From a virus, in IMG/VR virus record IMGVR_UViG_3300042881_002637, positions 1 to 22,792 of that record: a stretch of 22,792 bases of DNA. One strand, written 5' to 3'. Position 1 is the first letter of the stretch, and each line of letters begins with the position of its first letter. The translations under genes and the position numbers were made by a program. The notes beneath the pieces were generated by a model. That model did not search any database, was not told the origin of the DNA, and was given only the letters and a program-made list of their open reading frames with translations. Shown here one piece after another: positions 1 to 21,658 of the stretch.

Positions 1-1970
1 GTTCCAACAAGGGTAGAATCACGGATGATTCCTAGATCCAAAGTACCGCCATCAAGGAACAAGAATGAACCTTCTGCGAATAGGTACCAAGTGAATGAAT
101 CTGCGAACTCGTTTAGAGCAGCGGACGATGATTGTGCGCCAAACACGTTCTGATCTAGTGAAGCACTTAGTGTGACTCCACGAGAAGCAACGTATCCGTC
201 GATTTCTGCGTATGCGTTGAGAGTTGAATCTCCTGGCATTGCCAAAGCAAGGTCAGCAGCCATCGCGTCCTTAACCCATGCTGGGATAATCGCACGAAGT
301 GGTGCATCAGCCTCTAGGCGATGACGTGAACGGTAAGCAGCAGAAGCGCGACCTAGTTGTACTAGGAAGTCACGACCAAATCCGATTAGGGAAGTAGTTG
401 TAACTGCTGTTGAAGCAGTACCAATCTTTGAAAGAAGGTTTTGCTCTGCTTCACGAGCGTGCTGAATCAGACCCAACTCGTTGTGACGAGCGATGAGTTC
501 TGGATAAGCACGAGTCATCAAGTTACCGAACTGTAGTTGCAAAGTTACTGCGTCTGTTGCGACGGTTTGCTCTGCTGCTGCTGAAACGGTGAGGCTTGCT
601 TTAACATCGGTACCAGGTGCTGTATCAACTGCGTTTGTCCACACGCCAACTGCGTTTCCGTATGAGGAAAGCACTGGTGGTGTTACGAAGCGAATACCGC
701 CGCGATCAGCCTGGAAACGAGGAAGAGCATCACGTACTGGACGTGCTGTTGTTCCAAGTCCAAAAATGTCGTATTTGGTCTCGAATGGTGCTGCGTGTCC
801 ACCTGAAGCAACAAGTGCTTCTGGGCTTGTCACAGCGTTGATTTTTGCCCAGTTTGATTCAGCATCTTGTGTAAGAGTGCGGTCTTCTGGGAATGAAGTG
901 GTTACAGAAGCAACAATGTGTTGTTCTCCATCTCCACCGTTTACACGGCGTAGGCCATGTAGACGCTTTGCCATTGCTTCAGCAACAGCGCTCATATCTG
1001 TTAATGGGCTTCCAGCCGTATATCCTGGAATATCTGCACCCGCTGTGATTGCCACAGGAGCGGCAGATGTCCGAGAAGTTGGACGGCGGTCAGCCGGGAC
1101 CTCAATGTTGAGGTTGTCTGCATTTGCAGCGGCGGTCACGGGTGCCTCCATATTTTCTTGAACCAAAGTTGGTTCACTTGCTTGGGTTGATGTTTCTTGA
1201 ATAGATGCTTCTGCACCTTCAACAGTTTCAACAGATGCTTCTGTTGCTACTGGAGCATCTACAACAGTCTCTGCAACTGCTTCGGCAACTGGTGCCTCTG
1301 CTGATGCAACTTCTGCTGTTGGTGCCTCTTCTGTTGCTACTGGTGCTACTGATTCCTCAGCAGCGGCAACAACTGTTTCCTCTACAACAGCAACTGGTGC
1401 TGATGCTTCGGTAGTTTCGGTTTGTGATTCAGTTGAGAACTCTGCGTTCTTTTCCGCTTCGGTAGACGCTTCGGTCATGGTTTCTTCCTCTTTCTTTTTC
1501 TCGTCTTCTTCCTCAGAAGGGGTTTTTTCTTCAGGAGTGACAGGCATCTCTGCTGCCTCTTCCATCTTTTTCTCCTCTTCCACGGGAGCAGGAGTTTCTG
1601 AAACAGGTGCTTCCTCTGTCATTGGTGCTTCCTCTGTCATCGGAGCAACTGGTGCTTCCTCTGCCATTGGAGCATCTTCTGATTTGGACTCCATGTTTTC
1701 TTCCTCTTTTTCGCCATCTTGTCCGTAAACGCGGGTAGCGGCCTCAGAGGCTCGCTGAGCGAGTTCTTGGGCTGCGGCCTCGCGGCGCTTGACTTCGTTT
1801 CTAACTCCATCGAGCATATCGGCAAGCGACGTCATCGCGTCGACTGTTTGCGGGGTAGGATCTTCTTTCTCAACCGTTTCAAATTGCTTCAGGATTGCAC
1901 TCTGAAGTTCAGCAACTTGATCGTCGCCTAACTCTGCGAGTTGGTCCATCTGTTCTTTAATTCGGTCCAC
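1..1970 (-). CDS. Major capsid protein with long acidic N-terminal scaffold-like domain (partial, C-terminus outside window)
   Basis: HK97-type shell protein of actinobacteriophage kind; 656 complete codons are visible and the frame runs off the left edge with no stop. The chosen start is GTG at 1970, preceded at 6 nt by AGGAAGGA (1977-1984); ATG at 1949 is an alternative. Residues 1-85 are helical and charged. Residues about 86-273 are rich in Glu, Ala, Thr and Val with MTEEAP-like repeats, as in an assembly (delta/scaffold) domain. Residues 277-281 (PVTAA) and 307-311 (AITAG) match a motif shared with the other head proteins and may be maturation cleavage sites. The folded capsid part follows, containing PRFQADRGGIRF, AIIPAWVKDAMAADLALAMPGD in outline and, near the edge, a FLFLDGGTLDLG stretch typical of actinophage capsid proteins. 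It lies after the protease gene behind a 173-nt leader, which suggests extra expression. Family assignment is from recognition; the cleavage is inference. Confidence 0.92.
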   Translation of the reverse strand, partial: MDRIKEQMDQLAELGDDQVAELQSAILKQFETVEKEDPTPQTVDAMTSLADMLDGVRNEVKRREAAAQELAQRASEAATRVYGQDGEKEEENMESKSEDAPMAEEAPVAPMTEEAPMTEEAPVSETPAPVEEEKKMEEAAEMPVTPEEKTPSEEEDEKKKEEETMTEASTEAEKNAEFSTESQTETTEASAPVAVVEETVVAAAEESVAPVATEEAPTAEVASAEAPVAEAVAETVVDAPVATEASVETVEGAEASIQETSTQASEPTLVQENMEAPVTAAANADNLNIEVPADRRPTSRTSAAPVAITAGADIPGYTAGSPLTDMSAVAEAMAKRLHGLRRVNGGDGEQHIVASVTTSFPEDRTLTQDAESNWAKINAVTSPEALVASGGHAAPFETKYDIFGLGTTARPVRDALPRFQADRGGIRFVTPPVLSSYGNAVGVWTNAVDTAPGTDVKASLTVSAAAEQTVATDAVTLQLQFGNLMTRAYPELIARHNELGLIQHAREAEQNLLSKIGTASTAVTTTSLIGFGRDFLVQLGRASAAYRSRHRLEADAPLRAIIPAWVKDAMAADLALAMPGDSTLNAYAEIDGYVASRGVTLSASLDQNVFGAQSSSAALNEFADSFTWYLFAEGSFLFLDGGTLDLGIIRDSTLVG
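1606..1667 (-). repeat. Short repeats encoding MTEEAP-type units in the capsid N-terminus
   Basis: Three copies of a 17-nt unit (GGTGCTTCCTCTGTCAT on the plus strand, last copy with one change) lie at 1606-1622, 1624-1640 and 1651-1667. They encode repeated acidic Glu-Glu-Ala-Pro units inside the scaffold-like domain. Copy number could vary by slippage. Confidence 0.75.
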
Positions 1971-2143
1971 GAACTGTCCTTCCTCTGGCCAGTCACGATA
2001 GGTCTATTACCTATCTCGCTAATCAATCGAGGCCGAGGGACTCCGAAACGCTGTGTAGATAGCGTGGAGGCACTCCACCTAATACTGAATACTACATTAC
2101 TTCTAATAGTGTGATTTTTAGTTTTGTACGATTTTTTGACAGA
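1971..2143 (-). promoter_or_regulatory. Leader/intergenic region upstream of the capsid gene with two hairpins
   Basis: This is the only long gap within the leftward gene series. Read on the minus strand it holds a hairpin with stem GTGGAG/CTCCAC and loop TGC (2064-2078). A second, perfect 7-bp stem GATAGGT/ACCTATC with a 5-nt loop (1997-2015) ends 12 nt before the Shine-Dalgarno sequence. A TAGTAT hexamer (2089-2094) matches the -10 box of the early promoters on the right, but no good -35 lies 17 nt before it. I see no open frame. It may give the capsid gene its own promoter or a stabilising mRNA leader; which of these is unknown. Confidence 0.45.
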
Positions 2144-5100
2144 CTAGGTAAGTAAGCGAAGCAACTTAGCCATCTGGCTAGAAATCTCTGATTGGCTGTA
2201 GTAGTCCCCGCCAGACATAAAGGTGTTCAAATCCTTTGTGGCAACAGCGGCGTCTTCCTTACCAATCTTGGCCTCTACCCGTGTAATCATGTCATCCATA
2301 AGTTGTTGTAGCGCAGGAGGGATATCGCTAAAACGAATCTTTTGGGCGTCCTGACCAAAGGCAAAGGGAAGGTTAGCAATAACCTTTCCAAGTTCACCAG
2401 CACTACTTCTGACATTCTCTAAAGATTCAGCATTTAGTGCTCCAGTGTCCAAGCGGTCAATAATGCCTAGAAGGTCACCCGCTGCCTTGGCTGCGCCAGC
2501 GTAATTTCCAGCATTATCTAGATTTTCTGCTTGTTCAATCTTTTTTAGAGCAGCATCTGCGCCAGAATCACCTAAGTCCAGTTTCAACCGGGCAAGAACT
2601 TGTCGAAACTTTCCTTCCGCATCGCGGGGTTGGGTTTTAGGTGTGTATTTGGCACGTTCTGCATCTGCTTGTTTCTTGCCCTTAACTTCTTTTTTTAGTA
2701 AATCAAGTTCCTCGTCAGTCAAACCTTCAAGGTCTTTTTCACTAATTTCAGCAGCAGCCACAACTGTTTTAAGTGCTTCAATTTTGGCTCTCATACTGGC
2801 AATTAAGGTGTCTGAAGTATCAGATGCTTCTTTCCAGTTTTCTGGAATTAAGTCTGTCTTCTCAAGTTGGCGGGCACGCTTTACGATGTGGCGACGAACT
2901 AGTCCACGTTTTCCTGGCTTTGAACGTCCGTATGCCTGAACAGCATTTCTTAAGTCAGAAACATTTCTGATTGGAAATGAGCCATCTGGAAGTGCTTTCT
3001 TTTCGCCAGCAAGTTTTTCACGCATCTTGCGGGAAATCACTGCTAATTCAGTATCAGCATCTTCTAGTGTCTGAAGCATATAAGCGCTGTCAGCATTTTT
3101 TGTTTCTGCAATTCTGCTTGAAAGTTCTGAAGCCTTGATAGCAGCAGTCACTGCTTCAATGCGGGACTTAGCATCTTGTGCAGCAGCAACCATTGGTGCT
3201 TCAAGTTTGTCAATACGCTCATTTAATTCACGTAGTGGGTCATGCTTGAGTTGAGCAAGAACATTTGCACCAGCAGCAACAAGAGCCATAACCTGACCTG
3301 ATGCAACACGAGCACGAGCAATTGGGAAGCCAGGAACGTTTACTTGGCAAACTGCTACAAGTTCAAGTGAACCCTTGATTGGGCGCCAGTCACCAGACGG
3401 TGCTGAAGCACGAAGGGAACGAATCTGTTCTGGAGTTGTTCCAGGGCGAAGTGCTCCTGAGACCCAGATGCCATAAGCATCTTCTCCTGCGTGAACATCT
3501 GCGATAGCAGACGCTGTGTCGTCATAGTGACGAACTGCTTCTGAAGCACTGGCTTCTAGAGAAGCGTGTCCTCCAGCCAATGTTAATTGTCCAACTGGAA
3601 CATCGACACTTTCCTCAGTACGAACTACGCCAGTATGAAAATAGGCATAGTTACTCTTACTGCGTGGTGGTCGTGTTCCAAAAGACATTCCAATATGGTC
3701 AACGTGCCAAGCGGCAATATGACCAAAAACTTTTCCTTCATCAGTTACCGTCAGAGCGGTTGGCTTATTTAAGCCAGGGTTATCAAACCACTCTTTAGGC
3801 GGATGTACTGGAATAGCACCAGCAACAATTCCGCAAGCGACGAGTGCTGATGCGTCTAAAGGATTTACACCCTCGACATACACTCCGTCAGAAATCACTT
3901 CTTCCTCCTGGTCTCTCCCACTTTGTTCAACGAGTTCAATAGTGCACTCTTGATAAGCGGGCTTAGCGACAAGCGTTACAGCCATAACTCTTGCCTTTGT
4001 TATCTTCATTTTACCTGCTCCGACCTTACCGTCGGATTCTTTTTCTGAAGCATTTGTTTCTTCATCTGCTTCAAACATATCTAAGTCAGCAGAAACTCCA
4101 CGGATAAAGCCTCCACGAACAAGTCTTTCCGCTTCTTTTCCGTACTCACCAGTGTCAAAATAGCCATAGGCATTTCCTATGCCATTTTCTACTCTTTCCA
4201 TCTTGGTAATTTTTCCTATAACAACTGATCCGGAATGGCCTTCGCCAGTCTTGATTTGCCATAAGAAAGGTAGTGGTAGTTCTCTCATCAAAATAGCCCC
4301 TGGCACAAACTTACGTCCATCACCAGACTCGATGGCCTCAGGGATAACCAAAGGAATATAGAACTGTGCGCCAACTCCAGGCTCTTCCATAGAAGCACCA
4401 GCAGTCAAAACACGATTCTTAGCGTCAGCGATTCTTGCTTTCATAATTACTGAAGCAAGAACTGCCTCTGATGGAATAACAAAATCATTACTAAAAGTAT
4501 TTTTTGCTTTTCCTTTTTTACCAAACAGTTGACGATGCTCTTTATCGCCTGTCCACATACCTGTGGCTTCTTTATGGCGTAAGGCGCAATAGCCCTTAGA
4601 ACGAGGTCCCATATATTTAGAAAGTTGACGAACACAGCGTGTCCAGTCTCCTGGAGTATTCCAACGAATCTTTGCTGCGCCTTTTCCATATAACCAGTAG
4701 CGACGAAGTTTTTCAGCGTTGCCACGGTTTCTATCAGCACCACCTGCTGCCATCAAAGCAATGATTCTTGAATCAATATTGCTGATAGAGGCAGTTGCTG
4801 GTTTTACAGAATCAATTTGGTCTAATACCAAAGCAAGGTTGTCATCATCTAAAACAATAACTGGTGGGGGAGTAGGACTATTTAGGTCGTTAAGAATTTG
4901 CTCATCTTTTTCCCACTTGCCTGGTTTACGCTTATAAGTCATTGGAGTAGTTGTTTTATTAGTAGCAGGTACTAATGAAACTAATTCCATAACAGCCTGA
5001 GGGTCATCTGGAGAAACAATCGCCATATAAAGAGGAGGAACATCAGATGTTTCTGGGTTTAGTTCTACCTCTTTAGATTCAGCAGCAGAAGTAAAACCTT

Positions 5101-6889
5101 TTGGCGGCTGAGTCAGCCAAGATGCTGGGGTAAGACCTGGAGATGGTTTCAAATCTTTTTTTGGCTTATACGCTTCTACATCAGAAGGTTTTACAGGTGT
5201 TCTAGAAATATCAGGGCGATACCACATCGCGTTTGGATAACTTACAGTTCCATCTTTATTTACAACTTTTTTCTCTAAAAATTCTCGTAAAGATGGGTCG
5301 TTATATGCATTAGGAGTTTTACGTTGCTCTGTTGGTGGAGTCGGTGAGGAAGCAGGAACTTCTGCTGCTTGTTGTCTAAGGTCTACTGCCCAGGGAGAGA
5401 AATCACTAAGAATTGTTTTCACTTGATTTACCTGCAACTGTGGAAGTTTTGCTGTAAGAGTTGCTGCTGGTCTATCAATAGGAGTGCGAGGCTCTCCAAG
5501 AATATTTTTAGTTAACTGCTTAGTTGAAACAGCAGACTGAACCTGAGGCATTGGTTTGAAAGTGTCTACTGACTCTGTTGTATTAGCAGGTACATCTACA
5601 TAACTACCATTTGTAAGTTTTACTTTTACGCTTTGACTTTCTGGATTTATTGACTCGATAGTTCCCGTGTATTCAGGGTTTCCACCAATAACAACTTTTC
5701 CACCAGCCTTAGCAAACTTGCCCATTTTGTCACGAACCTGACCACGAGCCTTTTCTGAGCGCTCTTCTGGGGTGTAGTTTCCATCTTGATTTGTTGGTGC
5801 GCCACTTGATGGTGCTTCACCTGCGGCAGTTAGTGAATCATCTACTTCTGAATATTCTTCATACTCACTATAATCAGTTTCATCGTATTCAACTTCATCT
5901 ACTAAATCCCAATCAACGCCGTCCATTTCATCAACAAATAGTTGAGACTCTTCTGGCTCAATTTGAGAAACATAAACTGCTTTGAAAGGGTCTGCTTCAA
6001 ACAGACCAGAAATAATTACTGCTGTTTTGGAATCTATAGGCAAGTGTAGTTTTGCTACATTGTCGTAAGCATCGTCAAGAGACTTATCGTAAGTTTCAAA
6101 GTCGTGATTTACATTTCCTAAATCTTCCCACATAGCATCGTCCCAAACAAAGACAGAGCCATCTGGATTTACTTTATAGAGACGGTCAATTCCTGAACCA
6201 TCTAAACGAACACGCATATAAAACTGAGGTGCCATTTCTTCTGGCATAACTTCTGCTTCAATAAATGAATTAAGGTCAACTGACTCTGGCTTAGCGTAGT
6301 CAGACATAACGTATTCAAAAGAGGCAGTAATAGAGTTAGACTGGGCTTTTCTATTTTCACGATTTACGATTGCTGTAGCCCAAGACTTGGCAGCATCTCC
6401 GCCCCACAGTGCCCAAGCGATACGTCCGTTGCTTGGATAATTGTCTTGTCCAGGCTTGTAGCCTTTGCCTTTTTTGTCTACTTCATGGCGTGGAAAATAT
6501 TTAGCAATATGACGAATTTTACGAATACCAATTTGTCCACCACGAGCGAGAGTGCGAGCAGTGTTTAGACCGACTGGAGTTCCGCCACGCTTTTCTTCCT
6601 TACGCCATTCCAATGCTCGTTTTGCTTCGGCCTGAACTGATTTAGGAATTGTGTATAAGCGGTCATTGTTAGAGAAAACTTTAATATCAAGGTCTGTCGT
6701 AGCAGCAACAGCAAGTTCAAAAGGAATAGAAGATTCTGGTTTTGTTTGGTCGCCATCAGGCACAAAAGAAGCAACCATAGATTCGGCATCTCCTACCGAA
6801 CATACAAGTTTCTTTTGCTCGTCAATAATAACGGCTTTGTTGTCGGCAACAAATAAAACTTCGTCACCATTGCGACCAATAAACTGCAC
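2144..6889 (-). CDS. Prohead (capsid maturation) protease embedded in a 1581-aa multi-domain protein
   Basis: Serine protease of the HK97 prohead type (U35-like), expected to cleave head proteins during assembly. The protease core is about residues 830-985: His885 in GEGHSGS and Ser933 in RGVSAD are 48 apart, as in the family, followed by a VTLVAKPAYQ strand; the third catalytic residue is not assigned. Flanking modules known from actinophage head proteins are: about 78-175 (RGGTPVGLNTARTLARGG, small helical); 385-438 (RDKMGKFAKAGG beta module); 713-790 (RRYWLYGKGAAKIRW, CVRQLSKY); 1020-1200 (NYAYFHTG, HYDDTASAIADVHAGEDAYG); 1298-1352 (LPDGSFPIRNVSDLRNA); and 1418-1581 (RDAEGKF to YYSQSEISSQMAKLLRLLT). 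TAA-type motifs at 186, 352 and 827 lie between modules and suggest self-processing. The GTG start at 6889 follows GGAG. It is several times longer than a usual protease (about 200-250 aa). Confidence 0.93.
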   Translation of the reverse strand: MQFIGRNGDEVLFVADNKAVIIDEQKKLVCSVGDAESMVASFVPDGDQTKPESSIPFELAVAATTDLDIKVFSNNDRLYTIPKSVQAEAKRALEWRKEEKRGGTPVGLNTARTLARGGQIGIRKIRHIAKYFPRHEVDKKGKGYKPGQDNYPSNGRIAWALWGGDAAKSWATAIVNRENRKAQSNSITASFEYVMSDYAKPESVDLNSFIEAEVMPEEMAPQFYMRVRLDGSGIDRLYKVNPDGSVFVWDDAMWEDLGNVNHDFETYDKSLDDAYDNVAKLHLPIDSKTAVIISGLFEADPFKAVYVSQIEPEESQLFVDEMDGVDWDLVDEVEYDETDYSEYEEYSEVDDSLTAAGEAPSSGAPTNQDGNYTPEERSEKARGQVRDKMGKFAKAGGKVVIGGNPEYTGTIESINPESQSVKVKLTNGSYVDVPANTTESVDTFKPMPQVQSAVSTKQLTKNILGEPRTPIDRPAATLTAKLPQLQVNQVKTILSDFSPWAVDLRQQAAEVPASSPTPPTEQRKTPNAYNDPSLREFLEKKVVNKDGTVSYPNAMWYRPDISRTPVKPSDVEAYKPKKDLKPSPGLTPASWLTQPPKGFTSAAESKEVELNPETSDVPPLYMAIVSPDDPQAVMELVSLVPATNKTTTPMTYKRKPGKWEKDEQILNDLNSPTPPPVIVLDDDNLALVLDQIDSVKPATASISNIDSRIIALMAAGGADRNRGNAEKLRRYWLYGKGAAKIRWNTPGDWTRCVRQLSKYMGPRSKGYCALRHKEATGMWTGDKEHRQLFGKKGKAKNTFSNDFVIPSEAVLASVIMKARIADAKNRVLTAGASMEEPGVGAQFYIPLVIPEAIESGDGRKFVPGAILMRELPLPFLWQIKTGEGHSGSVVIGKITKMERVENGIGNAYGYFDTGEYGKEAERLVRGGFIRGVSADLDMFEADEETNASEKESDGKVGAGKMKITKARVMAVTLVAKPAYQECTIELVEQSGRDQEEEVISDGVYVEGVNPLDASALVACGIVAGAIPVHPPKEWFDNPGLNKPTALTVTDEGKVFGHIAAWHVDHIGMSFGTRPPRSKSNYAYFHTGVVRTEESVDVPVGQLTLAGGHASLEASASEAVRHYDDTASAIADVHAGEDAYGIWVSGALRPGTTPEQIRSLRASAPSGDWRPIKGSLELVAVCQVNVPGFPIARARVASGQVMALVAAGANVLAQLKHDPLRELNERIDKLEAPMVAAAQDAKSRIEAVTAAIKASELSSRIAETKNADSAYMLQTLEDADTELAVISRKMREKLAGEKKALPDGSFPIRNVSDLRNAVQAYGRSKPGKRGLVRRHIVKRARQLEKTDLIPENWKEASDTSDTLIASMRAKIEALKTVVAAAEISEKDLEGLTDEELDLLKKEVKGKKQADAERAKYTPKTQPRDAEGKFRQVLARLKLDLGDSGADAALKKIEQAENLDNAGNYAGAAKAAGDLLGIIDRLDTGALNAESLENVRSSAGELGKVIANLPFAFGQDAQKIRFSDIPPALQQLMDDMITRVEAKIGKEDAAVATKDLNTFMSGGDYYSQSEISSQMAKLLRLLT

Positions 6890-6892
6890 TTT

Positions 6893-7195
6893 TTACTCCG
6901 TCTCTTCAAGTTCTGTAGACTCGTACTTTAAGACATCTTCTATTGAAATAGCATAATCTTCAGCATCTGCTTTATCATAGAGTTCTATAAAGGCGGGGTT
7001 TACATTAAAGTCAATTAAACCATCTAAATCAAACTCCCATTCATCTTCTTCTGTTATTTCTTTCCACTGTCCTTCATCTCTATAAAACAGTTCGTTACCT
7101 GGCTCATAGTAAAGAACAAAAACTGCGTCTTTTTCTGGATCACATAAAACATACAAGTCTTCTGGAAACTCTGGATTTTCAGGTCTAAAAGCCAT
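6893..7195 (-). CDS. Small acidic protein of unknown function (100 aa)
   Basis: Not recognised. The protein is strongly acidic, with no Cys cluster beyond a single Cys, no signal peptide and no membrane segment. The middle (VFVLYYEPGNELFYRDEGQW) looks like beta strands and the C-terminus is a Glu/Asp-rich helix. The ATG at 7195 follows a strong AAAGGAG sequence and begins 2 nt after the stop of the CGNC gene. Its own stop is 3 nt before the start of the protease gene, so the three are almost certainly co-translated. The position suggests a small head accessory or assembly protein, which is inference from context only. Confidence 0.85.
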   Translation of the reverse strand: MAFRPENPEFPEDLYVLCDPEKDAVFVLYYEPGNELFYRDEGQWKEITEEDEWEFDLDGLIDFNVNPAFIELYDKADAEDYAISIEDVLKYESTELEETE

Positions 7196-7197
7196 TT

Positions 7198-7983
7198 TTA
7201 TTGCTCCTTTGCTTTACTATCATCAATAGGTCCACCTGCCACCCAAGCGCGACAAGTTCTAGCAGACGCACATTTGAAATCGAACGCTTCGCAGTATCCA
7301 AGTTCTCCAGCCTCGTCTATTGCATCAAACTCATCGGACTGATTTTCTCCAGTCAATCCTTGAGAGATGCAATCCTTCATTGATGATGTGACTACGAAAA
7401 CAGCGCAATTACCACAGCGCTGTTGCTTTGCAGTTTGCACATCTACGCCCCACTCAGATCCCAGTGCTTGCCAATACTCGTCGTTTGGCTCGTCTGGATT
7501 TAGTGGACCATACATAGCAGTGTCAATAGCGTTTTTACGGTTTTTTAGATTAAGAGCAATGTCTTGGGTTGCTGGAGGACATTCAGACACGGCGGCAGTT
7601 ATTGGTTTTAGTTCTTTTGCTGGATCATAAAATTTTGCTTCTTCTTCGTCAGAATAATCATCTCGAAGGTCTTGTTTTGCTAGTTCTAAAGCATCATCAA
7701 AACTATCGTATGGCTCATCTTCTTCTTCATAATAATTAATCATCATATTATACGAAACAATGTCTAAAATTTCTATAGCAATAGGTTTTTCTAACTCTTC
7801 TGTTTGCTTAATAGCATTAATTCTTGCTGATATTGCTCCTAAGAAATTTTCTATAACAATTTCTCTAGTTCCCACAGGGAAGCCAACACTGGTCTTTTTA
7901 CCATCCGTGACAACAACAAATGCAATAGGCTCTTTAGAATCGTCCATCTGAGCAGAGTAATAAACTCTATAATAAGACTTCAT
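7198..7983 (-). CDS. CGNC cysteine-cluster head-region protein (261 aa)
   Basis: N-terminal part about 1-110 is an alpha/beta domain (KSYYRVYYSAQMDDSK start, then acidic helices). PITAA at 127-131 (7591-7605) separates it from a C-terminal region with at least six cysteines: RCGNC (Cys190, Cys193), a Cys in MKDCISQG, GYCEAFDFKC and ARTCRAW. This CGNC cluster is also found in the protein downstream of the portal. It resembles metal- or iron-sulfur-binding (HiPIP-like or zinc ribbon) clusters seen in actinophage head-region proteins; no ligand can be assigned. The ATG at 7983 follows AAGGGG and starts 2 nt after the stop of the giant gene. A structural or assembly role is inferred from position. 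Confidence 0.87.
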   Translation of the reverse strand: MKSYYRVYYSAQMDDSKEPIAFVVVTDGKKTSVGFPVGTREIVIENFLGAISARINAIKQTEELEKPIAIEILDIVSYNMMINYYEEEDEPYDSFDDALELAKQDLRDDYSDEEEAKFYDPAKELKPITAAVSECPPATQDIALNLKNRKNAIDTAMYGPLNPDEPNDEYWQALGSEWGVDVQTAKQQRCGNCAVFVVTSSMKDCISQGLTGENQSDEFDAIDEAGELGYCEAFDFKCASARTCRAWVAGGPIDDSKAKEQ

Positions 7984-7985
7984 CT

Positions 7986-10900: not shown

Positions 10901-13900
10901 TCCACAAAAAGTCTTCGCCAACTTTTAGATTTCCTGGCTCTATAGGAGCAAGAAGTCCAGCATTTGCCTCAACCCAAGCGTTATCCTTAATTTTATCTTC
11001 GTCTTCTTTAATTTTTGCTTTTGCTTCTTCAGATAGAGGCTTTGGCTCTCTCTTTTTCTTTGGCTTGTCTTCTTCTGCTGGTTGTTCTGGATTTAGAAGA
11101 GCATCAACAACACGATTGACAAAATCTCTTCCTTCTTTTTCAGCCTCTGGCTCGTTTGTGTGAGAAGATGACTGGTTAGCAATAACATCTCCATCAACGT
11201 CTTTTACAACGGCATCAGCATTAAATTCTGGTTTTTCAGGATTATCTCCTGATTGAATTTTTATATTGCCAACTATTCCATCTGGAAGATTTTCAACTTC
11301 AACATATTTAGGAGCATTTACTGCGTCTCCTGGTATATCTCCACGAGAAACGGGAACGTCTTTTGCTCGTGCCTCTTCTGGTTCTTGCTGTTCTTGACGT
11401 CTTTGAGCAACTAAATCTTTCTTTTGTTCATCAAGTATCGCTCTTGCTTCGGCGTCAGCGGCAGCATATGTTCTAAATCTTTCTTCTGCTGCATAAATTT
11501 GATTTCCTTTTTCATCATAAAGTCTTACTTGATAGACAAACTTTTGGTCATCTTTTGACCTGTATATGCCAATAAATTCGCTACCAATCCCTGGAACGTT
11601 GTTGTATTCAGCAAGAAGGGCTTTGTCTTCTGCTGGTTCTGCTTCAAGTTTTTCTACGTCAATAGGATTATTAGCAATTATTTCAATAATTTCTGGCTCA
11701 GGTGACTCTGCAACTGGCTTAATCTTATCTGGCAAGTCTTCAAATGTTTTAGAATTAGATATAGCATCTAAATCACGAGGATTAATTGGTCGACGAACTC
11801 CATCAAGTCTTGTTCCGTGCCAATGCTCATAAGTAGATAACTCTCCACTGTCAACATCTTTTCTATAGACTTTTATTCGTCCTGCATCAAGACCAAAATC
11901 TTCACCACCACGAACAGCGACTACTTGATAAACTTGTCTTCCATCTTTAGATTGCATAAAATCACCAGGAAGCAAATCACGCATACGAATATTGTCACGA
12001 GGTAGGAGCACAGTGTTTTTATCATCAAGTGCCCACTCGCGGTCCTTGAGAACCATTCTTCCACGAGGAAAATCTACATTTGGTGTGAAATCAAGAACTA
12101 CAACTTCACCACGAGCACGAACTGGTTCTGGCTCAAGGCCAATAGGACCAGCGTCAATATTTTCTCCAGGGTTTGGAATACCAGTAGCGTCTTTTATAAC
12201 GTTATCAAGATTTGCAACATATCCATCTACATATGCTCGCAGTCCTTCTGCCAATGCTTTAGCGGCGGCAAACTCAGCAAGGTTTCCGTCATATAACTCT
12301 TTTGCTGCAATATATCCATCCATCTTTGCTACATACTCATCATTGCGAGCATCAACATCGAACAAATCTTTTCCAGCATCAAGTTCAATTCCCTTATCAA
12401 TAAGAGCATTGAAAATCTTTGCTGCTGCTTCTGCATCAGCATCTGCTGCGTGCCAATTTTCTAAATCAACGCCAAGATGTTTAGCAAGGTTTCCTAGAGC
12501 GTAACTTTCACGGCCCTTAGGAGTCTTAGGACGGTTTTCCTTAGGTTGGTCTTTGTAGATGTCTCGTGCCATTGGCAAAACGTCTAGTAAACCTCCTGGA
12601 GCCCAATCAAGACCATGACGGTCAGCAAGACGACGAGCAACTTCCTCATCAAAGACCATGTTTTGTGCGCCAAAGATTGCGTTTGGTCCTGCCCACTCCA
12701 AGAACTGACGCATTGCATCTTCTTGATTTGGTTGTTGTGCTAAAAATTCATCGTTAAGTTTGTTGCCCTTGTCATCTACAGCATTAGGGATTCCATCTGT
12801 ATCACGACCAGCATATGTATCAGCAATAGAGCGACCTGGGTTCATAAAGATATTTACACGGTCAATAACTTCACCATTGCGGACACGAACACCAGCAACT
12901 TGCCATGGCTCATTGCCATCTTCTGGATTTACTCCAGTTGTTTCAAAATCAAAGAAGACTAAATCTTTATCCTTAAGAAGTTCACGGAACTTAGCCCAAT
13001 CGCCACCTGCTTCACGAGCAATTGCAGCCATATCACCTTGGAAGGCTGGCATCTCAATTTGGCGTGGAGGTGTAGGACGTCGTACAGCAACAGCGTTAGG
13101 AATATCCTTATCCTGCTCTGCAACGTTTTCTTTATTATCTACAACAGGAAGGTTTTCTGGAGCAGTCCAGCGGGCTGCTGCTTCGTCTAATTTCTTTTGA
13201 TGCTCTTGAATTCCTTTTTCATCTTTTTTATCAGGAACCCACTTTTCATTAATAATTTTGTAAGGCTGATGTAGTTCTTCTAAATCACCCTTTGCAGGTG
13301 GTTCAACATTACGAATAACATCAATAGGACCATCTGCTTTCCACTCTTTTCTTTGAGTGACGTGCCCTGGGTAGTATCCCTCGACGCTAACAAAATTTGG
13401 CTTAGTTTTTTCATCAACAAAAATTCTTTCAATTACAAAGTGACCCTTCTTAGGGTCTGTAGTTACATCTCCAGGTTTTAGATCAGCAGCACGAGAAATA
13501 ACTCTATGAGGATTATTAGAAGGCTCTGTTGGGTCTACAAAAAGTTTTTTAGCCTTATCTAACTCTACTCTGTACTCTGCCATAGCGGCGTCAAAGGCTG
13601 CTTGGTCTTCTGGTTTAGCAAATCCCCATTTATTATTTTCTTTGTTTAGTTTACGACGACCAAAATCTTGCTCCTTTGGCTTAGAAAGAACTGGTAGGTC
13701 TCCCTTTTCTGGAAGCGGATTTACGTTACGAATTACACTAATCTCTGTATCTTCATTCCATTGCTTAGTGTCTTGCTCAACGTGGCCAGGATAGTAACCC
13801 TTAATTTTAATGCGATTTGTTCCAGGAACTTTTTCACCAAGTTCAGTAATAACAAAATGGTCATCAACAGTTATATCTCCAGGAATAATGTCTTTTACTT

Positions 13901-16895
13901 TTACAGTAATTCTGTATGGTGGTTTTCCTATATCTCCTCCCCCAGGAGGTGTAGAACTTCCCCCACCTGCTGCTGGAGCAACGTTTGCTGGTTTTGGATA
14001 TTCTTCTAGACCATCTGGAATCTCCTGTAGCCCATCAACTTGAAAATCATCTGGCATAGCAGGGCGAATGTTTTTATTTTCTGGAAGAGAAACAATGTCT
14101 AAACCTTTTTCACCTTCTGTAGCAGTGCCTGGCTTGCGCTCTGCTGCAACTGGAAGTTCTGCAACTGGTGCATTTACGTCTGGGAAATCTCCAGCCTGTT
14201 CTGCAATACGCTTTTCTCTTCCAAAGGCTGCCCAGGCTTCTTTCTGAGCAGGGCGAGGCATATCAACTGCCCATGATGTTTCAAAATCATCTAAAGCCCT
14301 CTTGTAGGCTTCTGTATGGTTATCTGGATTAGCAAAGAAATCTGCAATCTCCGCTTGAGTCATTGAATCAAAAGCGGCAATTTGCTCATCTGAAAAACCG
14401 TAGCCTTTAGCAAACTCTTTAATCTTTTCACGAGATGCTTTTGCATATTCTGCCTTGCGAGCATCTAGGTCTGCCTGTACTTCATCCCAATTTTCATAAG
14501 TCTTTGGTTCAACAAGTTTGTTTCGGTCCTTGACAGTAATTTTTCCATCTTTATCGGTAGATGCTTCAAAGTTATTCAAACCATAAACGTTGTTATAGTT
14601 TTCTGGAAGAGCGCGGCCAAACATTCTTCCTACTGTTTGTGAGATTCCCCAACCTTCGGGAACAGAACGTCCTTGGTCATCAACACGGGCCTCAGCGTTG
14701 GCTTTTAGTTCTGCTATGCGGTCTTCAATAGCCTTTTTCTCTGCTGCTTGCTCTGCCATCAAACGCTCGTAAGCATTCATTGGCTTATCCTCAACTGGGA
14801 GGTCTAGAGGAAGTTCTGCTTGCTGTTCTTCTTGTCCAACAAATCCTTCATCAGCAATTGACTTAACAAGTGTGTCTGTATCTTCTCCAAGAAGTTGTAG
14901 AGCATCACGCACTGCTTCTACAGGAACGTTTGCTACAAAGTCTTCGCCATCATCATCTTTCATAGACACATTTGCGTGTCCTGGAATTGGATTACCTGGC
15001 TCAATGCCACGCTTTAGTTCTTCAACAAGTTTTTCTTTTTCAATAGACTGCGCTAAGAAGACAGGGTTGTCACTAAATCCAACTGGAAGATTTTCATTTT
15101 GGTCTTCTTCAGTAACTTCTTTCCAGTTTTGGTATGGCTCAGGATTGATTTTGTGATATCCCGCTGGCATATCAACATCTTCATTTTTTGGAAGGTAAGG
15201 AGTGTGGTCCTTAGTTTTCATAAACTCTTCCATCTCGGCTTCGCCAAGACCATCTAATACAACTGGAAGTGGAACTAGGTCCATCTCCTCTTTATTGAAA
15301 TCTGGAATCTCTGCTGCTGGTGCCTCATCTGCGTCGCGCTCAATAGTTCTTTCAAATGCTTCAGCAATATCTGGATTAGGTCCAGTAACATTTTCTGAGC
15401 CCTTACGGAAGTCAGCAAGTGCTTCTTCGTTTTGTTTAGTTCCAAGTTTTTTGTCGTAGATTCTTGCAAGTTCTAGTGGAGCATCTTCACCAGCCTCTTG
15501 AAGAGCAAAAAACAATGCTTCTGCTGGAACAAACTCGTCTCCGTTATTGAAACCAAGTGCTCCATAGCCAGTTGCGTTTTCGCCATCTTCTTTTGGAATA
15601 ACTGCTTCTTCTAAAGCAGCAACTAAATCACGAGGGTCATATTTTTGTGCAAGTTCTACAGGGTCATCAGTAAAATCTGTTGACTCTTCATCAATACGAC
15701 CTTCAGGGTCATATGATAAATCTGGGTTAATTATTTTTGCGCCTTCAGGAATAGCAAAAGCAAAAGCCGCTGCTTTTTCTTTAGGTTTTACAATTTCTTG
15801 TTTTTGTTTTTGTTGTTCTTTTGCTTCTGGAAATTCTGTTTCCTGAGAAGGCTTATCAATTTCATCAATCTTGTCTAGAATCTCTGACCAAGACTTGGCA
15901 TCAATGATTGGACCTTTGCCATTGCTTCCAGTTAAGTTTCCAAAAGTATCTTTTGTAACTGTCCACTCTTCGTTTTTCCAAGTATACTCACCAAATTTTG
16001 TCCATCCATCTGGTGCTTCAACAAATTCAATATCTTCTTCGTTGATTACATCATCACTTGCTGAATAACGAACTGGTGCTTTACTAAATCCATCAGCGGT
16101 CGGGTTAAGGATTGCTTTTACGAACTCGCCTTTAACAGGTGGAAGTTTTGCGATACGGCCATCTGGAAGTTCTACAAGAACATTTTGTCCATCATTGGAG
16201 TCCATAAGAGTTTTACCAACAACGCTAAATACTTTTCCAGCACGACGGACTAAAGCACGAATACCTCCGCCCATGTAAGCAAATCGACCTTTGCGGTCAC
16301 GACGTTGTAGTTTTGCACGAAGAGAACGAGCAATTGGAGAGTTTCCATCGCCCATAGCAGCAAGTAAAGTTTCTGCTGGAAGAGTCCCCTGAGGTAGACC
16401 AGCAAGGATTGAGTTGTAATAAGTATGTTCTACAGAGCCAAACTCTGAAGTAAGTGCTGAAGCAAGAATTACTCGTGCACGTTCATCTGTAATTCGTGCG
16501 TCATCAACAAACCAACGAGCACGAGAAGATTCTAAAGCAGATGCTGTAAGAGAGTGGTCACGAGTTGAGCGTGGGTGTGAGATTGGAAGTAAATCTGTGT
16601 GTGAAAGAGTTAAAGAGTTGTTCTTATTGTTTTGAGCAAGGTTGATGTATTGAGTAAGTTCTTTCAAAGCCATATGCTCACGTAGTGAGAATGGAAGATT
16701 ACGTGTTGCTTGAAGTGAGCGAAGAACTACAGTAAATGCTGCCTTCTTTGTAATACGGCGAGATGTATTGGCATTTGTATTTGCTTGTTCAATTACAGAA
16801 AGTGCTGACTCACGGATACGAAGAGCCTGGCTCATCGACTGAGCGCGACGTCCCTCTTCTGAGATTGCGTGACTTAGTCTGCGAATTCTGCTCAC
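7986..16895 (-). CDS. Giant 2969-aa putative minor head/ejected protein with DEDDh exonuclease and HipA/PI4K-like kinase domains
   Basis: One unbroken frame, starting at GTG 16895 (GAGGAAGG upstream; overlaps the previous stop as GTGA). Residues 1-130 form a helical head ending in DLLPISHPRS and SLTAS (115-119). RDRKGRF (199-205) opens a small beta module. Two related segments (about 376-492 and 576-686) share INP, FLAQ-like, DGE-FV and GED motifs. Two GYYPGHV repeats lie at about 995-1075 and 1130-1212. The DEDDh exonuclease is about 1305-1505, with Asp1316/Glu1318 in DFETTG, Asp1416 in NMVFDEE, and His1482/Asp1487 in HAADAD. More PGD-type beta modules follow (about 1635-1700, 1980-2050, 2108-2188), then a possibly WYL-like stretch (2267-2313). 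The C-terminal kinase-like domain (about 2700-2969) has Lys2735, Asp2839 in GNSDRHGGN and Asp2862 in PIDNG. The linkers are rich in Glu, Pro and Lys. It takes the place of a MuF-like minor head protein; ejection with DNA is inference. Confidence 0.95.
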   Translation of the reverse strand: MSRIRRLSHAISEEGRRAQSMSQALRIRESALSVIEQANTNANTSRRITKKAAFTVVLRSLQATRNLPFSLREHMALKELTQYINLAQNNKNNSLTLSHTDLLPISHPRSTRDHSLTASALESSRARWFVDDARITDERARVILASALTSEFGSVEHTYYNSILAGLPQGTLPAETLLAAMGDGNSPIARSLRAKLQRRDRKGRFAYMGGGIRALVRRAGKVFSVVGKTLMDSNDGQNVLVELPDGRIAKLPPVKGEFVKAILNPTADGFSKAPVRYSASDDVINEEDIEFVEAPDGWTKFGEYTWKNEEWTVTKDTFGNLTGSNGKGPIIDAKSWSEILDKIDEIDKPSQETEFPEAKEQQKQKQEIVKPKEKAAAFAFAIPEGAKIINPDLSYDPEGRIDEESTDFTDDPVELAQKYDPRDLVAALEEAVIPKEDGENATGYGALGFNNGDEFVPAEALFFALQEAGEDAPLELARIYDKKLGTKQNEEALADFRKGSENVTGPNPDIAEAFERTIERDADEAPAAEIPDFNKEEMDLVPLPVVLDGLGEAEMEEFMKTKDHTPYLPKNEDVDMPAGYHKINPEPYQNWKEVTEEDQNENLPVGFSDNPVFLAQSIEKEKLVEELKRGIEPGNPIPGHANVSMKDDDGEDFVANVPVEAVRDALQLLGEDTDTLVKSIADEGFVGQEEQQAELPLDLPVEDKPMNAYERLMAEQAAEKKAIEDRIAELKANAEARVDDQGRSVPEGWGISQTVGRMFGRALPENYNNVYGLNNFEASTDKDGKITVKDRNKLVEPKTYENWDEVQADLDARKAEYAKASREKIKEFAKGYGFSDEQIAAFDSMTQAEIADFFANPDNHTEAYKRALDDFETSWAVDMPRPAQKEAWAAFGREKRIAEQAGDFPDVNAPVAELPVAAERKPGTATEGEKGLDIVSLPENKNIRPAMPDDFQVDGLQEIPDGLEEYPKPANVAPAAGGGSSTPPGGGDIGKPPYRITVKVKDIIPGDITVDDHFVITELGEKVPGTNRIKIKGYYPGHVEQDTKQWNEDTEISVIRNVNPLPEKGDLPVLSKPKEQDFGRRKLNKENNKWGFAKPEDQAAFDAAMAEYRVELDKAKKLFVDPTEPSNNPHRVISRAADLKPGDVTTDPKKGHFVIERIFVDEKTKPNFVSVEGYYPGHVTQRKEWKADGPIDVIRNVEPPAKGDLEELHQPYKIINEKWVPDKKDEKGIQEHQKKLDEAAARWTAPENLPVVDNKENVAEQDKDIPNAVAVRRPTPPRQIEMPAFQGDMAAIAREAGGDWAKFRELLKDKDLVFFDFETTGVNPEDGNEPWQVAGVRVRNGEVIDRVNIFMNPGRSIADTYAGRDTDGIPNAVDDKGNKLNDEFLAQQPNQEDAMRQFLEWAGPNAIFGAQNMVFDEEVARRLADRHGLDWAPGGLLDVLPMARDIYKDQPKENRPKTPKGRESYALGNLAKHLGVDLENWHAADADAEAAAKIFNALIDKGIELDAGKDLFDVDARNDEYVAKMDGYIAAKELYDGNLAEFAAAKALAEGLRAYVDGYVANLDNVIKDATGIPNPGENIDAGPIGLEPEPVRARGEVVVLDFTPNVDFPRGRMVLKDREWALDDKNTVLLPRDNIRMRDLLPGDFMQSKDGRQVYQVVAVRGGEDFGLDAGRIKVYRKDVDSGELSTYEHWHGTRLDGVRRPINPRDLDAISNSKTFEDLPDKIKPVAESPEPEIIEIIANNPIDVEKLEAEPAEDKALLAEYNNVPGIGSEFIGIYRSKDDQKFVYQVRLYDEKGNQIYAAEERFRTYAAADAEARAILDEQKKDLVAQRRQEQQEPEEARAKDVPVSRGDIPGDAVNAPKYVEVENLPDGIVGNIKIQSGDNPEKPEFNADAVVKDVDGDVIANQSSSHTNEPEAEKEGRDFVNRVVDALLNPEQPAEEDKPKKKREPKPLSEEAKAKIKEDEDKIKDNAWVEANAGLLAPIEPGNLKVGEDFLWSAFFNNYEEILEIVYVGGPLNRYKITVKNRVNGETESRFYEAGTPIRNVRRLGVQDEEFEIVDNKDGTNRGGIRGQQPRLPLEERIIPREGRKVGGKFEEKKKGFYRDANGVPVKPGDVVVDPKKPQLGRGVVLRREGAQVKGVGPVGGLGRKGVMYGDYVVVQWENEIERKYKFPGVKRMAGNLVILNEIEEPINLPNFFQGGKATPNIVPGRKAEAAPSPSPAPEPKAEAPDAAPDDKFAVPLIEPVVRKDKNKDLEEQIRRAIENGDDISFNYNGKTRYVKPIKVWENLQNGNINIAAIENGEIKNFTISKMEYIADPEGAAIERREAVPEQQRLMEVEKPENKEQENAPQKIFNGNVADRGGKGFNISVVKINNNYEAAVFPEGEERGRGEIIAKAENLADVQAVINRFVDDVVNADDGNKVVRSYAGVEEPEPQPVLTRETAQVPDLPARKSLDLRTAKVRAKDLKAAIADKEFVQIEPFGKADQAAIDRDRESKKNYILRLLAANANEIDRRRGDRFAKDMRNAATYARGLGWFEEARKMEALAGLQEEIPLRPMDDDFKQKVENLEALFPDMFQVYNDAKQRLGFRVGDNRRAIRNNFDDALMYPDPFNPNFRNAVLAGPRNIDAMIGQIKNIVAAEDEQKGLDDLVEKLEKIKNGFIDFGDLPKLPVREVGSDEANQRVAKIAREFSGFTADEIKNGIGDWKYVRNMTAGINGLFLLQNKINGEYVLIKVDIDKGNMVGKFLGNGIRAEEMVAMLYKDLGFAQPAVKIINPESNDPAVGGVAVMEFADTGFFGLQNIKKDSDARVRGIEDVMPEHRAEILRFLVGNAIIGNSDRHGGNFMWGIDPDTGKARIIPIDNGLALFNGMFGNAEKNNSNPLFLDPIRILTSRDYGNRNAALQYGAGYVDNVGIDQAESEIVEFANRMRERAAALALIDDRAAGYIDARAEYVIKNARKLAEKIRRGY

Positions 16896-17851
16896 TCTTG
16901 TGTACCTTCCTCAAACTCTGGTAACAAATCTCCATCAAGACTTCCATGACCTAAAGATGCTAGAAGTGATGCACGAACAAAAGGATCGTCGCCATTTCTT
17001 ACACCACGAAGCCAACTTGCTCTAATTGCTTCCTCCGCTTCATATCCATAACCTGAATACTCTGCCATAGCAAGGATAGCGTCTTCTGGGTATAGGTAAT
17101 CTTCTTTATCTTTTAGTTCAATATTAAGTTCTTGCTCGTATGCAAACTCTTCAACATCTTTCATAGATGTTTTTCCTTCTTTTTTGATTACGCCATCTGG
17201 AAGAACAGCAAAACGACACACTCCTAGTGGTTCTACAGGTAAAGAAATGATTTGACATTGATTTCCACCAGCATAAAGAACACAGTTGCCACAATGGACG
17301 CCAATTTCTTGGTCTTTGTTCTCTGCGGCAGGTGTATAGCCAGCCCAAATGCCAGTTTCGTCTTCATTAAACTTTCCATACTTGTTAGCAATCTCAATAA
17401 GTGCTGCTGCTAACTCTTGTTCTTCTGGAACAAGTCCTGCGGCAGTGATTGAATTAGATTTTTTACTAGAGCGAGGGTGTGCAGCAGGTAAAAGGTCATT
17501 ATCTGTTGTGTAAGCAGAGTTAGAAGGCTTTCCAGACTTGAGTAAACGCAAGAAAGCATTGACACGGCCCATTGCCCATTGGTTGCGATTCATTCCAGGA
17601 CGATGCGAGACACTAAATGCTCCTGCGCCACGGCGATAGACCGCCTTGAGCATTCCTAGAGATGCTTTACGTCCAGAAGGTGCTTTTTCATTGTGCTTAG
17701 AAACTTTTTCTTTCAAAGATGCTTCAACTGCTGCTGAAAATTTTACTTTGCGTGCTGCTTTGGTTCCTTTAGCGGAATCTTTTTTGTTTTTTGATGAACC
17801 TTTGATTCGATCAGACTTCGGTGCTGGTGTCTGGCTGATTGTCCTCGACAT
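16892..17851 (-). CDS. CGNC cysteine-cluster protein downstream of portal (about 319 aa)
   Basis: The preferred start is ATG 17851, with GGAAGGCGGTG just upstream; a longer frame begins at TTG 17929 but would overlap the portal by 118 nt. With ATG 17851 the overlap with the portal end is 41 nt. The N-terminus (MSRTISQTPAPKSD, then Lys-rich) is basic. A helical part with GMNRNQWAMGRVNAFLRLL follows, then DLLPAAHPRSS and SITAA (134-138; 17438-17452), the same pair of motifs as at the start of the giant. The C-terminal half carries HCGNC (Cys187, Cys190), Cys199 and Cys212 (PLGVCRF), a four-cysteine metal or Fe-S type cluster. The stop overlaps the giant's GTG by 3 nt, so they are probably translationally coupled. 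Function is unknown; actinophages commonly carry a similar gene next to the portal. Confidence 0.88.
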   Translation of the reverse strand: MSRTISQTPAPKSDRIKGSSKNKKDSAKGTKAARKVKFSAAVEASLKEKVSKHNEKAPSGRKASLGMLKAVYRRGAGAFSVSHRPGMNRNQWAMGRVNAFLRLLKSGKPSNSAYTTDNDLLPAAHPRSSKKSNSITAAGLVPEEQELAAALIEIANKYGKFNEDETGIWAGYTPAAENKDQEIGVHCGNCVLYAGGNQCQIISLPVEPLGVCRFAVLPDGVIKKEGKTSMKDVEEFAYEQELNIELKDKEDYLYPEDAILAMAEYSGYGYEAEEAIRASWLRGVRNGDDPFVRASLLASLGHGSLDGDLLPEFEEGTQE

Positions 17852-19580
17852 TTGATTCACCGCCTTCCGCAGGTGCTCCAGAAGTTGCTTGTTGTAGAAG
17901 TTGTTCAACACTTTCAGGTAGCGGAGCAACAGATGCGCCCTGCTGAGCCTCTCTTACCTTCATCATAAGTTCAGGACTTAGCGCACCAAGCATTGCTTCA
18001 GTAAGTTCAGGAGTAATTGCTCCCTTCTCAAAGAGCATTCTGATTCCAACTTCTTCTGCTGTAGGTGTATCGGATGCAGAGAAGCCATGAGCACGACGCC
18101 ATGTCTCTCCAGAGATAATTCCTCTATCAAATCCAGAGTCAGCATCCATCGCTCTGTCATTGCGGGTTGAAACTGCGCTTGGGTCATACCAAACAACAAT
18201 TCTGTCAACCTCTGTTGGATTGAATCCTTGCGCCTCTAGATAAGGACGTAGGTAAACAATTGTTAAAGCATCAGCAATAAGCAACATCAATGGTTCGATG
18301 TGTGCTTTGTACAGTGCTTCATCAATTTGTAGAGCGTTCGAGTATTTCACATTAGCAAGACCTGTTACTACATCCTTTGGAACATCTAGACCCTGAAGGA
18401 TACGTTCTAGTACTCGGTCTGCACGTTGAGCCAATGCAGGGTCGAACGAACGCTCAAACTTAAATTGCTTAATCGCATCGCCAAGTTCAGCAGGGCCACG
18501 GATGATAAGCGGAACGACAGCGGAAGCAGACTCTTCATCACGAATCGGAGTTGTCATTGCATCAATGAGTTGTTCTTCAAACTCATCTTCTGCTTCTTCA
18601 GCAGTAAAGCCAGGATTTAACTCGCTATCTGCCTCGTCATATGGATAATCAGGGTCTCCTTGAGCAGCAACTGATAAACCATCTGGTAAATAAAGTGCGC
18701 CAGCATTGAGGCGAGAACGTGCTGTTGCACGGAATGTTCTATTGAGCAAAAGTAATTCAGCACAAAGGTCTAACAAACCACGAAGTGATGAATCTGCTTC
18801 ATCTGAATAACGTGGGTGCGAACGCCAAATGCGTCCTACGAATGCGCCATTAGCAAGACGATTGACTCCTAGTGCACCGCCAGTGCTTTGTTCACGGCGA
18901 CCAATAACGTTGTATCCACCACGAGCATCTGCCATAATTTCATCAACGGAACGAATGTCCCAAGACTCAGGGATTCCAGAGCCTTTCTTTTCTGGCATTT
19001 GAACTAAATAACATTCTCCAGCAACTGAAAGATTGAGTGCTGCATCTTTGAGAAGACCTGCTTGTCCGCCATATGCAGAGTCAAGCCGTGCAAGTGCTCG
19101 CTCTGCGGCAGCAGCAAGACGTGGGTCAATAATTTTTGCGTTGCGTACAGATGTTGGAGACTCTGATGCGTTCTCTACAACGGCTGCGTAAATTCTAATT
19201 CGTGAAACAACAGATGCAACTAAATTGAAAGCATACTTAACTTCACCAATAGCATCGTAGTATTCCCATGCTTCGGCTTGCCATGCTGATGAGCCAGCAG
19301 CACGACGTTGTCTAAATTGTTCAAACTCACCTTTGTCATTAATTTTAATTTGTACTGCCGCAGCAGTTAAAGAACGTGGAGTTGAATAAGCAACAGGAGA
19401 TGCAGGTGATGATAAAAATACTGAGGCAGGTCCAGAAACTTTAGAAGAACTACGACGAGCAACTATTTGTGTGGAACGAGTAGTAGATTTTGACTTACCT
19501 TTTTTAGGTGAAGATGCTTTCTTAGGGACAGCAGGGCGAACAGGTTCATTAGACGGTTCTTCGCGTTTGAATACGCCCAC
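17811..19580 (-). CDS. Portal protein (589 aa)
   Basis: Dodecameric DNA-entry ring of the capsid vertex, recognised by similarity to actinophage portals. Characteristic stretches are WEYYDAIGEVKYAFNLVAS near 105-123, the LLLLNRTFRATARSRLNAG helix region, a FERSFDPALAQRADRVLERI stretch, LDVPKDVVTGLANVKYSN and IVVWYDPSAVSTRNDRAMDA. Residues 1-69 are a basic, Ser/Lys-rich leader ending in RSLTAAA (70-75; 19356-19373), a motif shared with other head proteins and possibly a maturation site. The C-terminus (from about 545) is a Glu/Gln-rich tail. The start is GTG 19580, 8 nt after GAGGAG; no better ATG exists at the N-terminus. Length is normal for this group. It lies 36 nt after the DUF1360-like gene and overlaps the next gene. 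Confidence 0.95.
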   Translation of the reverse strand: MGVFKREEPSNEPVRPAVPKKASSPKKGKSKSTTRSTQIVARRSSSKVSGPASVFLSSPASPVAYSTPRSLTAAAVQIKINDKGEFEQFRQRRAAGSSAWQAEAWEYYDAIGEVKYAFNLVASVVSRIRIYAAVVENASESPTSVRNAKIIDPRLAAAAERALARLDSAYGGQAGLLKDAALNLSVAGECYLVQMPEKKGSGIPESWDIRSVDEIMADARGGYNVIGRREQSTGGALGVNRLANGAFVGRIWRSHPRYSDEADSSLRGLLDLCAELLLLNRTFRATARSRLNAGALYLPDGLSVAAQGDPDYPYDEADSELNPGFTAEEAEDEFEEQLIDAMTTPIRDEESASAVVPLIIRGPAELGDAIKQFKFERSFDPALAQRADRVLERILQGLDVPKDVVTGLANVKYSNALQIDEALYKAHIEPLMLLIADALTIVYLRPYLEAQGFNPTEVDRIVVWYDPSAVSTRNDRAMDADSGFDRGIISGETWRRAHGFSASDTPTAEEVGIRMLFEKGAITPELTEAMLGALSPELMMKVREAQQGASVAPLPESVEQLLQQATSGAPAEGGESNVEDNQPDTSTEV

Positions 19581-21103: not shown

Positions 21104-21128
21104 ACCCCTATCCTACAGGGTTTTTTAG

Positions 21129-21245
21129 ATGCCGTACAAGACTAAAGCAGCAAAATCATTGGACGACAAAGACGAATATATGAACCTTTCCATATTTTGG
21201 TTTTGGCCTGTGACAAGGCTCTGCATAGTATTAGCACTTTTCTAA
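21129..21245 (+). CDS. Doubtful 38-aa ORF in the divergent region
   Basis: The frame begins MPYKTKAAKSLDDKDEY, reminiscent of the N-terminus of some phage HNH-type proteins, and then turns into a hydrophobic stretch (FWFWPVTRLCIVLALF). It has no convincing ribosome binding site and no promoter just upstream. It could be a remnant, a tiny membrane protein or chance. Low confidence. Confidence 0.18.
   Translation: MPYKTKAAKSLDDKDEYMNLSIFWFWPVTRLCIVLALF
21203..21231 (+). promoter_or_regulatory. Candidate rightward promoter in the divergent region
   Basis: TTGGCC (21203-21208), 17 nt, TAGTAT (21226-21231). The sequence TAGTATTAGCA around the -10 is identical to that of the promoter before the 53-aa gene. 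The -35 is weak. No gene follows for about 450 nt, so any transcript would begin with a long noncoding leader. Confidence 0.4.
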
Positions 21246-21268
21246 ATCGTTTCCGGAGAAAAATAAAT

Positions 21269-21635: not shown

Positions 21636-21658
21636 TAGGTATGTAGTCAAAGGGGCTA
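21503..21658 (+). repeat. AAGGGGGCTA repeats
   Basis: Two perfect copies lie at 21503-21512 and 21545-21554, and one with a single change at 21649-21658. The G-rich part looks like a ribosome binding site. The first copy precedes a GTG (21514) opening a 9-codon frame (MSRLLITIR), so leader peptides are possible but unproven. Confidence 0.4.
21607..21635 (+). promoter_or_regulatory. Promoter of the 73-aa gene
   Basis: TTGACA (21607-21612), 17 nt, TAGTGT (21630-21635), about 44 nt before the start codon. It belongs to the same family as the three promoters further right (shared ACTTGACAA). Confidence 0.72.

Follow-up and report, generated by a model that had tools for sequence, protein, structure and literature searches.

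Predicted head maturation protease sites at leader/domain junctions in the head proteins of an uncultured virus related to actinophages

The head protease of phage T4, gp21, is reported to cleave after Glu in the motif L/I-X-E, and T4 internal proteins enter the head with a removable targeting sequence (PMC9026906). In the cited account of phage SPN3US, gp245 cuts after AXE, Ser is preferred at P1', and a portal propeptide of 254 residues is removed (PMC10052503). The bonds given for the protease of Kaposi's sarcoma-associated herpesvirus are Ala-Ala, Ala-Ser, and Ala-Thr (PMC9888664), and herpesvirus proteases are described as being released from a larger precursor (PMC8537868, PMC4498786). 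The cluster J mycobacteriophages Omega and LittleE are described as HK97-type, with removal of the capsid delta domain (PMC3706429). Here, we analyze a short motif, typically Thr-Ala followed by Ala, Ser, or Gly, that recurs in the head proteins encoded by IMGVR_UViG_3300042881_002637, the whole record of an uncultured virus (22,792 bases; the window), and that, judging from the sequences and their alignments, very likely marks the point at which the phage's own head maturation protease recognizes and cuts its substrates. No publication on this motif turned up in the literature searched, in which the motif itself was never a search term and most subscription journals were outside the scope.

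The minus strand of the window encodes, in order, the portal protein, a 345-residue open reading frame (ORF), a 2969-residue protein (the giant), a 261-residue and a 100-residue protein, a 1581-residue protease polyprotein, and, in a frame that stays open to the window edge, the major capsid protein. By window order and PHROG names, the protease gene sits between those of the portal and major capsid proteins. There was no near match to the window among 50,697 phage records, and portal relatives were present in 848 phage records. The closest named relative is Actinomycetia phage DSL-LC01 (portal identity, 74%); the other nearest named phages are Microbacterium phages Pumpernickel and Cece, Arthrobacter phage Mimi, and Gordonia phages Sixama, GMA2, and Phendrix.

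Motif conservation at leader/domain junctions

In alignments of relatives, almost all of which came from contigs of uncultured viruses, the position of the motif was held while the leaders diverged. A row was counted as keeping a site if it carried [ILVM]xA[ASG] no more than 4 residues away; near-duplicates (more than 85% shared 5-mers) and rows with fewer than 12 residues on a side were excluded, as were, for the 261-residue protein, rows with fewer than 40 residues of leader. On this count, the portal SLTAA (residues 70 to 74; 19359..19373, minus strand, as are all features below), with its predicted cut between Ala73 and Ala74, was kept in 47/47 relatives, and the two capsid sites, PVTAA (residues 277 to 281; 1128..1142) and AITAG (residues 307 to 311; 1038..1052), were each kept in 55/55. 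The SITAA of the 345-residue ORF (residues 160 to 164; 17438..17452) was found in 52/58 relatives, and the PITAA of the 261-residue protein (residues 127 to 131; 7591..7605) was found in 28/34 relatives having the leader; several relatives carry the CGNC domain of the latter without a leader, in a frame with Met-Ala at the boundary. The giant has SLTAS (residues 115 to 119; 16539..16553), kept in 42/61 relatives and absent in a subgroup, and a second leader site that the earlier sequence-only reading had not listed, TLLAA (residues 176 to 180; 16356..16370), kept in 57/62. Where the window has TLLAA, DSL-LC01 has PVTAA and Cece has ALTAA before a like stretch, matched by eye.

The protease polyprotein carries several such sites. 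SITAS (residues 186 to 190; 6320..6334) was kept in 29/46 relatives, SLTAA (residues 352 to 356; 5822..5836), whose preceding 15 residues are poorly conserved, in 42/47, and VLTAG (residues 827 to 831; 4397..4411), directly N-terminal to an S78-like domain, in 32/49. An additional possible site lies at residues 37 to 41 (MVAS at 38; 6767..6781; 36/49 relatives), and further likely sites are ALMAA (residues 711 to 715; 4745..4759; 51/53) and GIVAG near the start of a second domain (residues 1020 to 1024; 3818..3832; 39/48). Equal-length flank zones scored 0.006 to 0.229 on the same pattern. The sequence-only reading had proposed alignment as a check on whether the motif persists where its flanks diverge, and the counts above bear it out.

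We next summarized 11 sites as an equal-weight logo, in which rows were shifted by up to 4 residues onto the pattern, so that P3, P1, and P1' lean towards it. P3 was Leu, Ile, Val, or Met at 0.96, P2 was Thr at 0.62, P1 was Ala at 0.90, and P1' was Ala, Ser, or Gly at 0.93 (Ala, 0.58; Ser, 0.20; Gly, 0.15). The motif as first proposed, with an obligatory Thr, was therefore too narrow, although all its listed occurrences are present: Thr at P2 is preferred, not required. The consensus is [LIVM]-x-A-[ASG], and the wider form adds giant 177 and protease 38, 712, and 1021 as likely sites; the cut bond would be the one after the Ala.

To compare families, all of them with 8 rows or more, we called a column conserved if at least 70% of rows carried [ILVM][TS]A[ASG]. 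Such a column was present in 6/7 head families, five by the 70% column and the 261-residue family by a looser count (27/34 with TA within four residues), versus 2/22 control families (Fisher P value = 3.8e-4). The head family without a conserved motif column was that of the 100-residue protein. None of the 12 tail or flanking families had a conserved column, which also fits a maturation protease site. The two control columns came from the 10 nonstructural families, DNA polymerase I (ITAG459) and a helicase (LTAA515), and lie well within their proteins, which are 605 and 599 residues long, respectively. A borderline third capsid column at 462 (0.70) is within the body of that protein. When divergent sequence was searched openly for spikes of conservation, TAA emerged in the portal, 261-residue, and protease families and was, among the tripeptides listed, the only exact one shared by three head families; the 24 spikes from control families all lacked TA[ASG].

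Downstream of AITAG, the capsid protein has a further Ala-Gly motif, GYTAG (residues 316 to 320; 1011-1025, minus strand); GITAG (Mimi), GISAG (Cece), GLTAG (Sixama), and GLTAG (GMA2) occur at a similar place, to which they were assigned without alignment.

We also considered whether Ala/Thr-rich linkers yield the motif by chance, with homologues inheriting it. All nine motifs listed by the sequence-only reading were found at their residues in six head proteins; the 319-residue protein that it named is a shorter form of the 345-residue ORF, its SITAA at 134 being residue 160 counted from the ORF's TTG. A tenth, unlisted match, protease AVTAA 1246, was not taken as a site and is probably a chance match because it lies inside a predicted long helix and is kept in only 29/58 relatives; protease TLIAS near 1367 was likewise rejected (9/71 relatives). 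The original motif thus occurs 10 times in the 6,475 residues of the seven head ORFs versus 0.50 times in composition-preserving shuffles, and the core [ILVM]TA[ASG] occurs 11 times versus 1.74; for either pattern, 0/1000 shuffles equalled the observed count. DSL-LC01, a relative with a complete genome, has the core 12 times in the portal-to-capsid block versus 2.43 expected (about fivefold), 4 times in the tail block versus 1.66 expected (2.4-fold), and 14 times versus 8.89 expected (1.6-fold) in 54 other coding sequences, a subset of the genome. The motif is therefore enriched in the head block, but not exclusively so; because the core also occurs in non-head coding sequences, raw counts were rejected as a sole criterion. 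The excess in those 54 coding sequences and the two control columns are what an effect of composition would produce. The shuffles, the conservation of the motif but not of its flanks, and its presence in 15/15 portals are not, and we disfavor this explanation, which we regard as very improbable. What sets the head group apart from the others is conservation at the leader/domain junction, not raw frequency.

The 15 portals are those of the window and 14 named phages, seven of them distant. In all of them the motif lies 26 to 35 residues N-terminal to the first conserved tryptophan box (for the spacing of 35, in Cece, the box was called one step later by the pattern), although the stretch ahead of it ranges from 14 to 69 residues. 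With shuffled leaders, the motif appeared in a mean of 0.38 and a maximum of 3 of 15 portals. Similar motifs were found in distant phages near the start of MuF/protease proteins and in capsid leaders. A constant spacing behind a variable N terminus would fit a structural element equally well, namely, an assembly or docking tag that binds scaffold, capsid, or portal and is retained uncut in the virion. Such a tag is unlikely, since the substitution pattern is of the protease type (P2 free, P1 Ala nearly fixed, and P1' small), sites also occur within the protease precursor ahead of its domains, and the genes of this block include one for a prohead-type protease.

Two domains of the protease polyprotein

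The S78-like domain (domain 1; protease residues 838 to 991; 3917..4378) was identified by a fold match and conserved residues. Its match to Pfam PF04586 (S78) was weak and fell just short of the cutoff, at 20.9 bits against 21. The modeled fold matched the proteases of varicella-zoster virus (Z = 10.1), T4 (gp21, Z = 10.1), and pseudorabies virus (Z = 9.7); the first 33 rows of the structure search were all herpesvirus or T4-type proteases. In Foldseek, the best rows had E values of 0.008-0.03. His885 and Ser933, which we infer to be the catalytic pair, were conserved in 43/44 rows, with one gap. Sequence searches of solved structures found no relative of the capsid, protease, or portal protein, and the capsid model (pLDDT, 44.5) was not used. 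The counterpart of the 1581-residue protease is split into three genes in DSL-LC01 (L082 23803-28722) and two in Mimi.

Domain 2 (protease residues 999 to 1213; 3251..3895) was assigned by PHROG to phrog_18402, head maturation protease, and has no recognized fold; it had no sequence match in the Protein Data Bank and falls in a low-confidence part of the model. It is not a tandem copy of domain 1 (hhalign probability, 1.59). Domain 2 is the more conserved of the two and was present in 14/14 named loci, while domain 1 was present in 10/14. The entire records of Gordonia phages Sixama, GMA2, Phendrix, and Tangent gave no S78-like domain and no Pfam S78 match, with two positive controls matched. 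Because these four phages keep the portal motif without domain 1, domain 2 may be what reads the motif, with the herpes-fold domain as an accessory. This would be a special case of cleavage by the head protease, not a competitor to it, and [LIVM]xA[ASG] brackets domain 2 on both sides in several lineages. We consider it possible but doubtful: it is domain 1 whose fold is known and whose His and Ser are conserved, and in the Gordonia phages this domain could be hidden by divergence beyond the profile.

Taken together, conservation amid diverging flanks, recurrence in distant actinophages, and the fold of domain 1 support the sequence-only reading that the motif is a maturation protease site. 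Several observations weigh against it. Sites are lost in some relatives (giant 116, 19/61; protease 187, 17/46; protease 828, 17/49), and the relatives are nonindependent samples. Conserved cores, those of controls included, often contain the loose form [ILVM]xA[ASG], which was for that reason rejected as a sole criterion. Confidence in the protease model is moderate (pLDDT, 53.8), although domain 1 is better. The portals of Sixama, GMA2, Phendrix, and Tangent retain the motif with no detectable S78-like domain in the whole records of these phages. Furthermore, the mature capsid protein of LittleE, an actinophage of another group, is reported to begin with DLDRNN (PMC3706429), so the rule is restricted to the present group rather than extended to actinophages at large.

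Shared leaders and putative cargo

The leader of the 345-residue ORF contains a DUF5824 domain (17492..17791; Pfam E = 5.9e-08), and the leader of the giant (16554..16895) is homologous to that of the 345-residue ORF (hhalign probability, 96.95; E = 1.3e-10; 81 columns). Both leaders end in a DLLPxxHPRST stretch immediately before the site. Because the 345-residue ORF and the giant share this one leader domain, it may be a cleaved head-targeting leader.

The enzymes encoded between portal and protease differ among phages: exonuclease and kinase-like in the window, an annotated helicase in Mimi, and an ADP-ribosyltransferase in Sixama. By analogy with T4, in which Alt is described as an ADP-ribosyltransferase and internal protein that is cut by gp21 and ejected (PMC9026906), these enzymes could be packaged proteins with cleavable head-targeting leaders, which would place the giant and its neighbors inside the capsid.

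Within the giant (7986-16895, minus strand), residues 1313-1495 form an RNase_T exonuclease domain, and residues 2832-2869, near the C terminus, give a weak PI3/PI4-kinase match. Sixama gp75 (L243 24301-28158) has a C-terminal ADP-ribosyltransferase domain (Pfam E = 1.7e-16), also matching an Alt-like PHROG, that recalls T4 Alt. At the record end, about 1.7 kb (21104-22792) is without a long ORF; its frames give similar short peptides, perhaps dispersed repeats.

In the mechanism that we propose, the portal protein, the capsid protein, the protease polyprotein, and three of the proteins encoded between portal and protease would be made with N-terminal leaders, and these leader-bearing precursors would be incorporated into the prohead. 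The leaders would then be trimmed once the protease activates, at [A/S/T/P]-[LIVM]-x-A-[A/S/G]-[A/G] (T preferred at x, cut after the A), and the protease would also excise itself from its 1581-residue precursor. If this is true, mature N termini and virion cargo could be predicted from sequence in many actinophages and the shared domain would point to a head-targeting leader, while the Gordonia exceptions bear directly on which protease domain cuts. A broader picture, to which we give rather little weight as a whole, is that a large actinobacteriophage group matures its heads in a coordinated manner through a herpesvirus-like specificity for Ala followed by Ala, Ser, or Gly; that its two-module protease has a constant and possibly catalytic domain 2 and a dispensable herpes-fold domain; and that cleavage at the same sites removes the DUF5824 leader shared by large, enzyme-bearing proteins that travel in the head alongside the genome.

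Comparison with known head proteases

As in T4, a single head protease would serve capsid, core, and internal proteins in the window through a short motif whose P3 is hydrophobic; unlike in T4, where P1 is Glu, the predicted P1 is Ala (0.90 over the 11 predicted sites). SPN3US and phiKZ are contractile-tailed phages with Gram-negative hosts. As described for them, portal, capsid, and internal proteins are predicted here to carry N-terminal propeptides, whereas the AXE motif described for SPN3US places Glu at P1. Omega and LittleE, as described, share the order portal, protease, capsid with the window, but the mature capsid N terminus of LittleE is not of the form [ASG][AG], and nothing in the cited account suggests that other head proteins of these two phages are cut in a coordinated manner (PMC3706429).

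The herpesvirus protease assemblin shares the fold of domain 1 and is, as predicted here, excised from a larger precursor. It differs in that assemblin is N-terminal to the scaffold part, whereas the domains described here are internal to a long polyprotein, and in that the substrates predicted here include the portal and capsid proteins. Assemblin has a hydrophobic P3. Compared with herpes-type specificity, the predicted sites fit at P1 (Ala) and, where P1' is Ala or Ser, at P1' as well, but P1' Gly (for example, at capsid 307 and protease 827) does not fit. The predicted cutting preference is closer to that of the herpesvirus head protease than to that of T4, and, if this is true, phage and herpesvirus head proteases would share a cleavage preference besides a fold.

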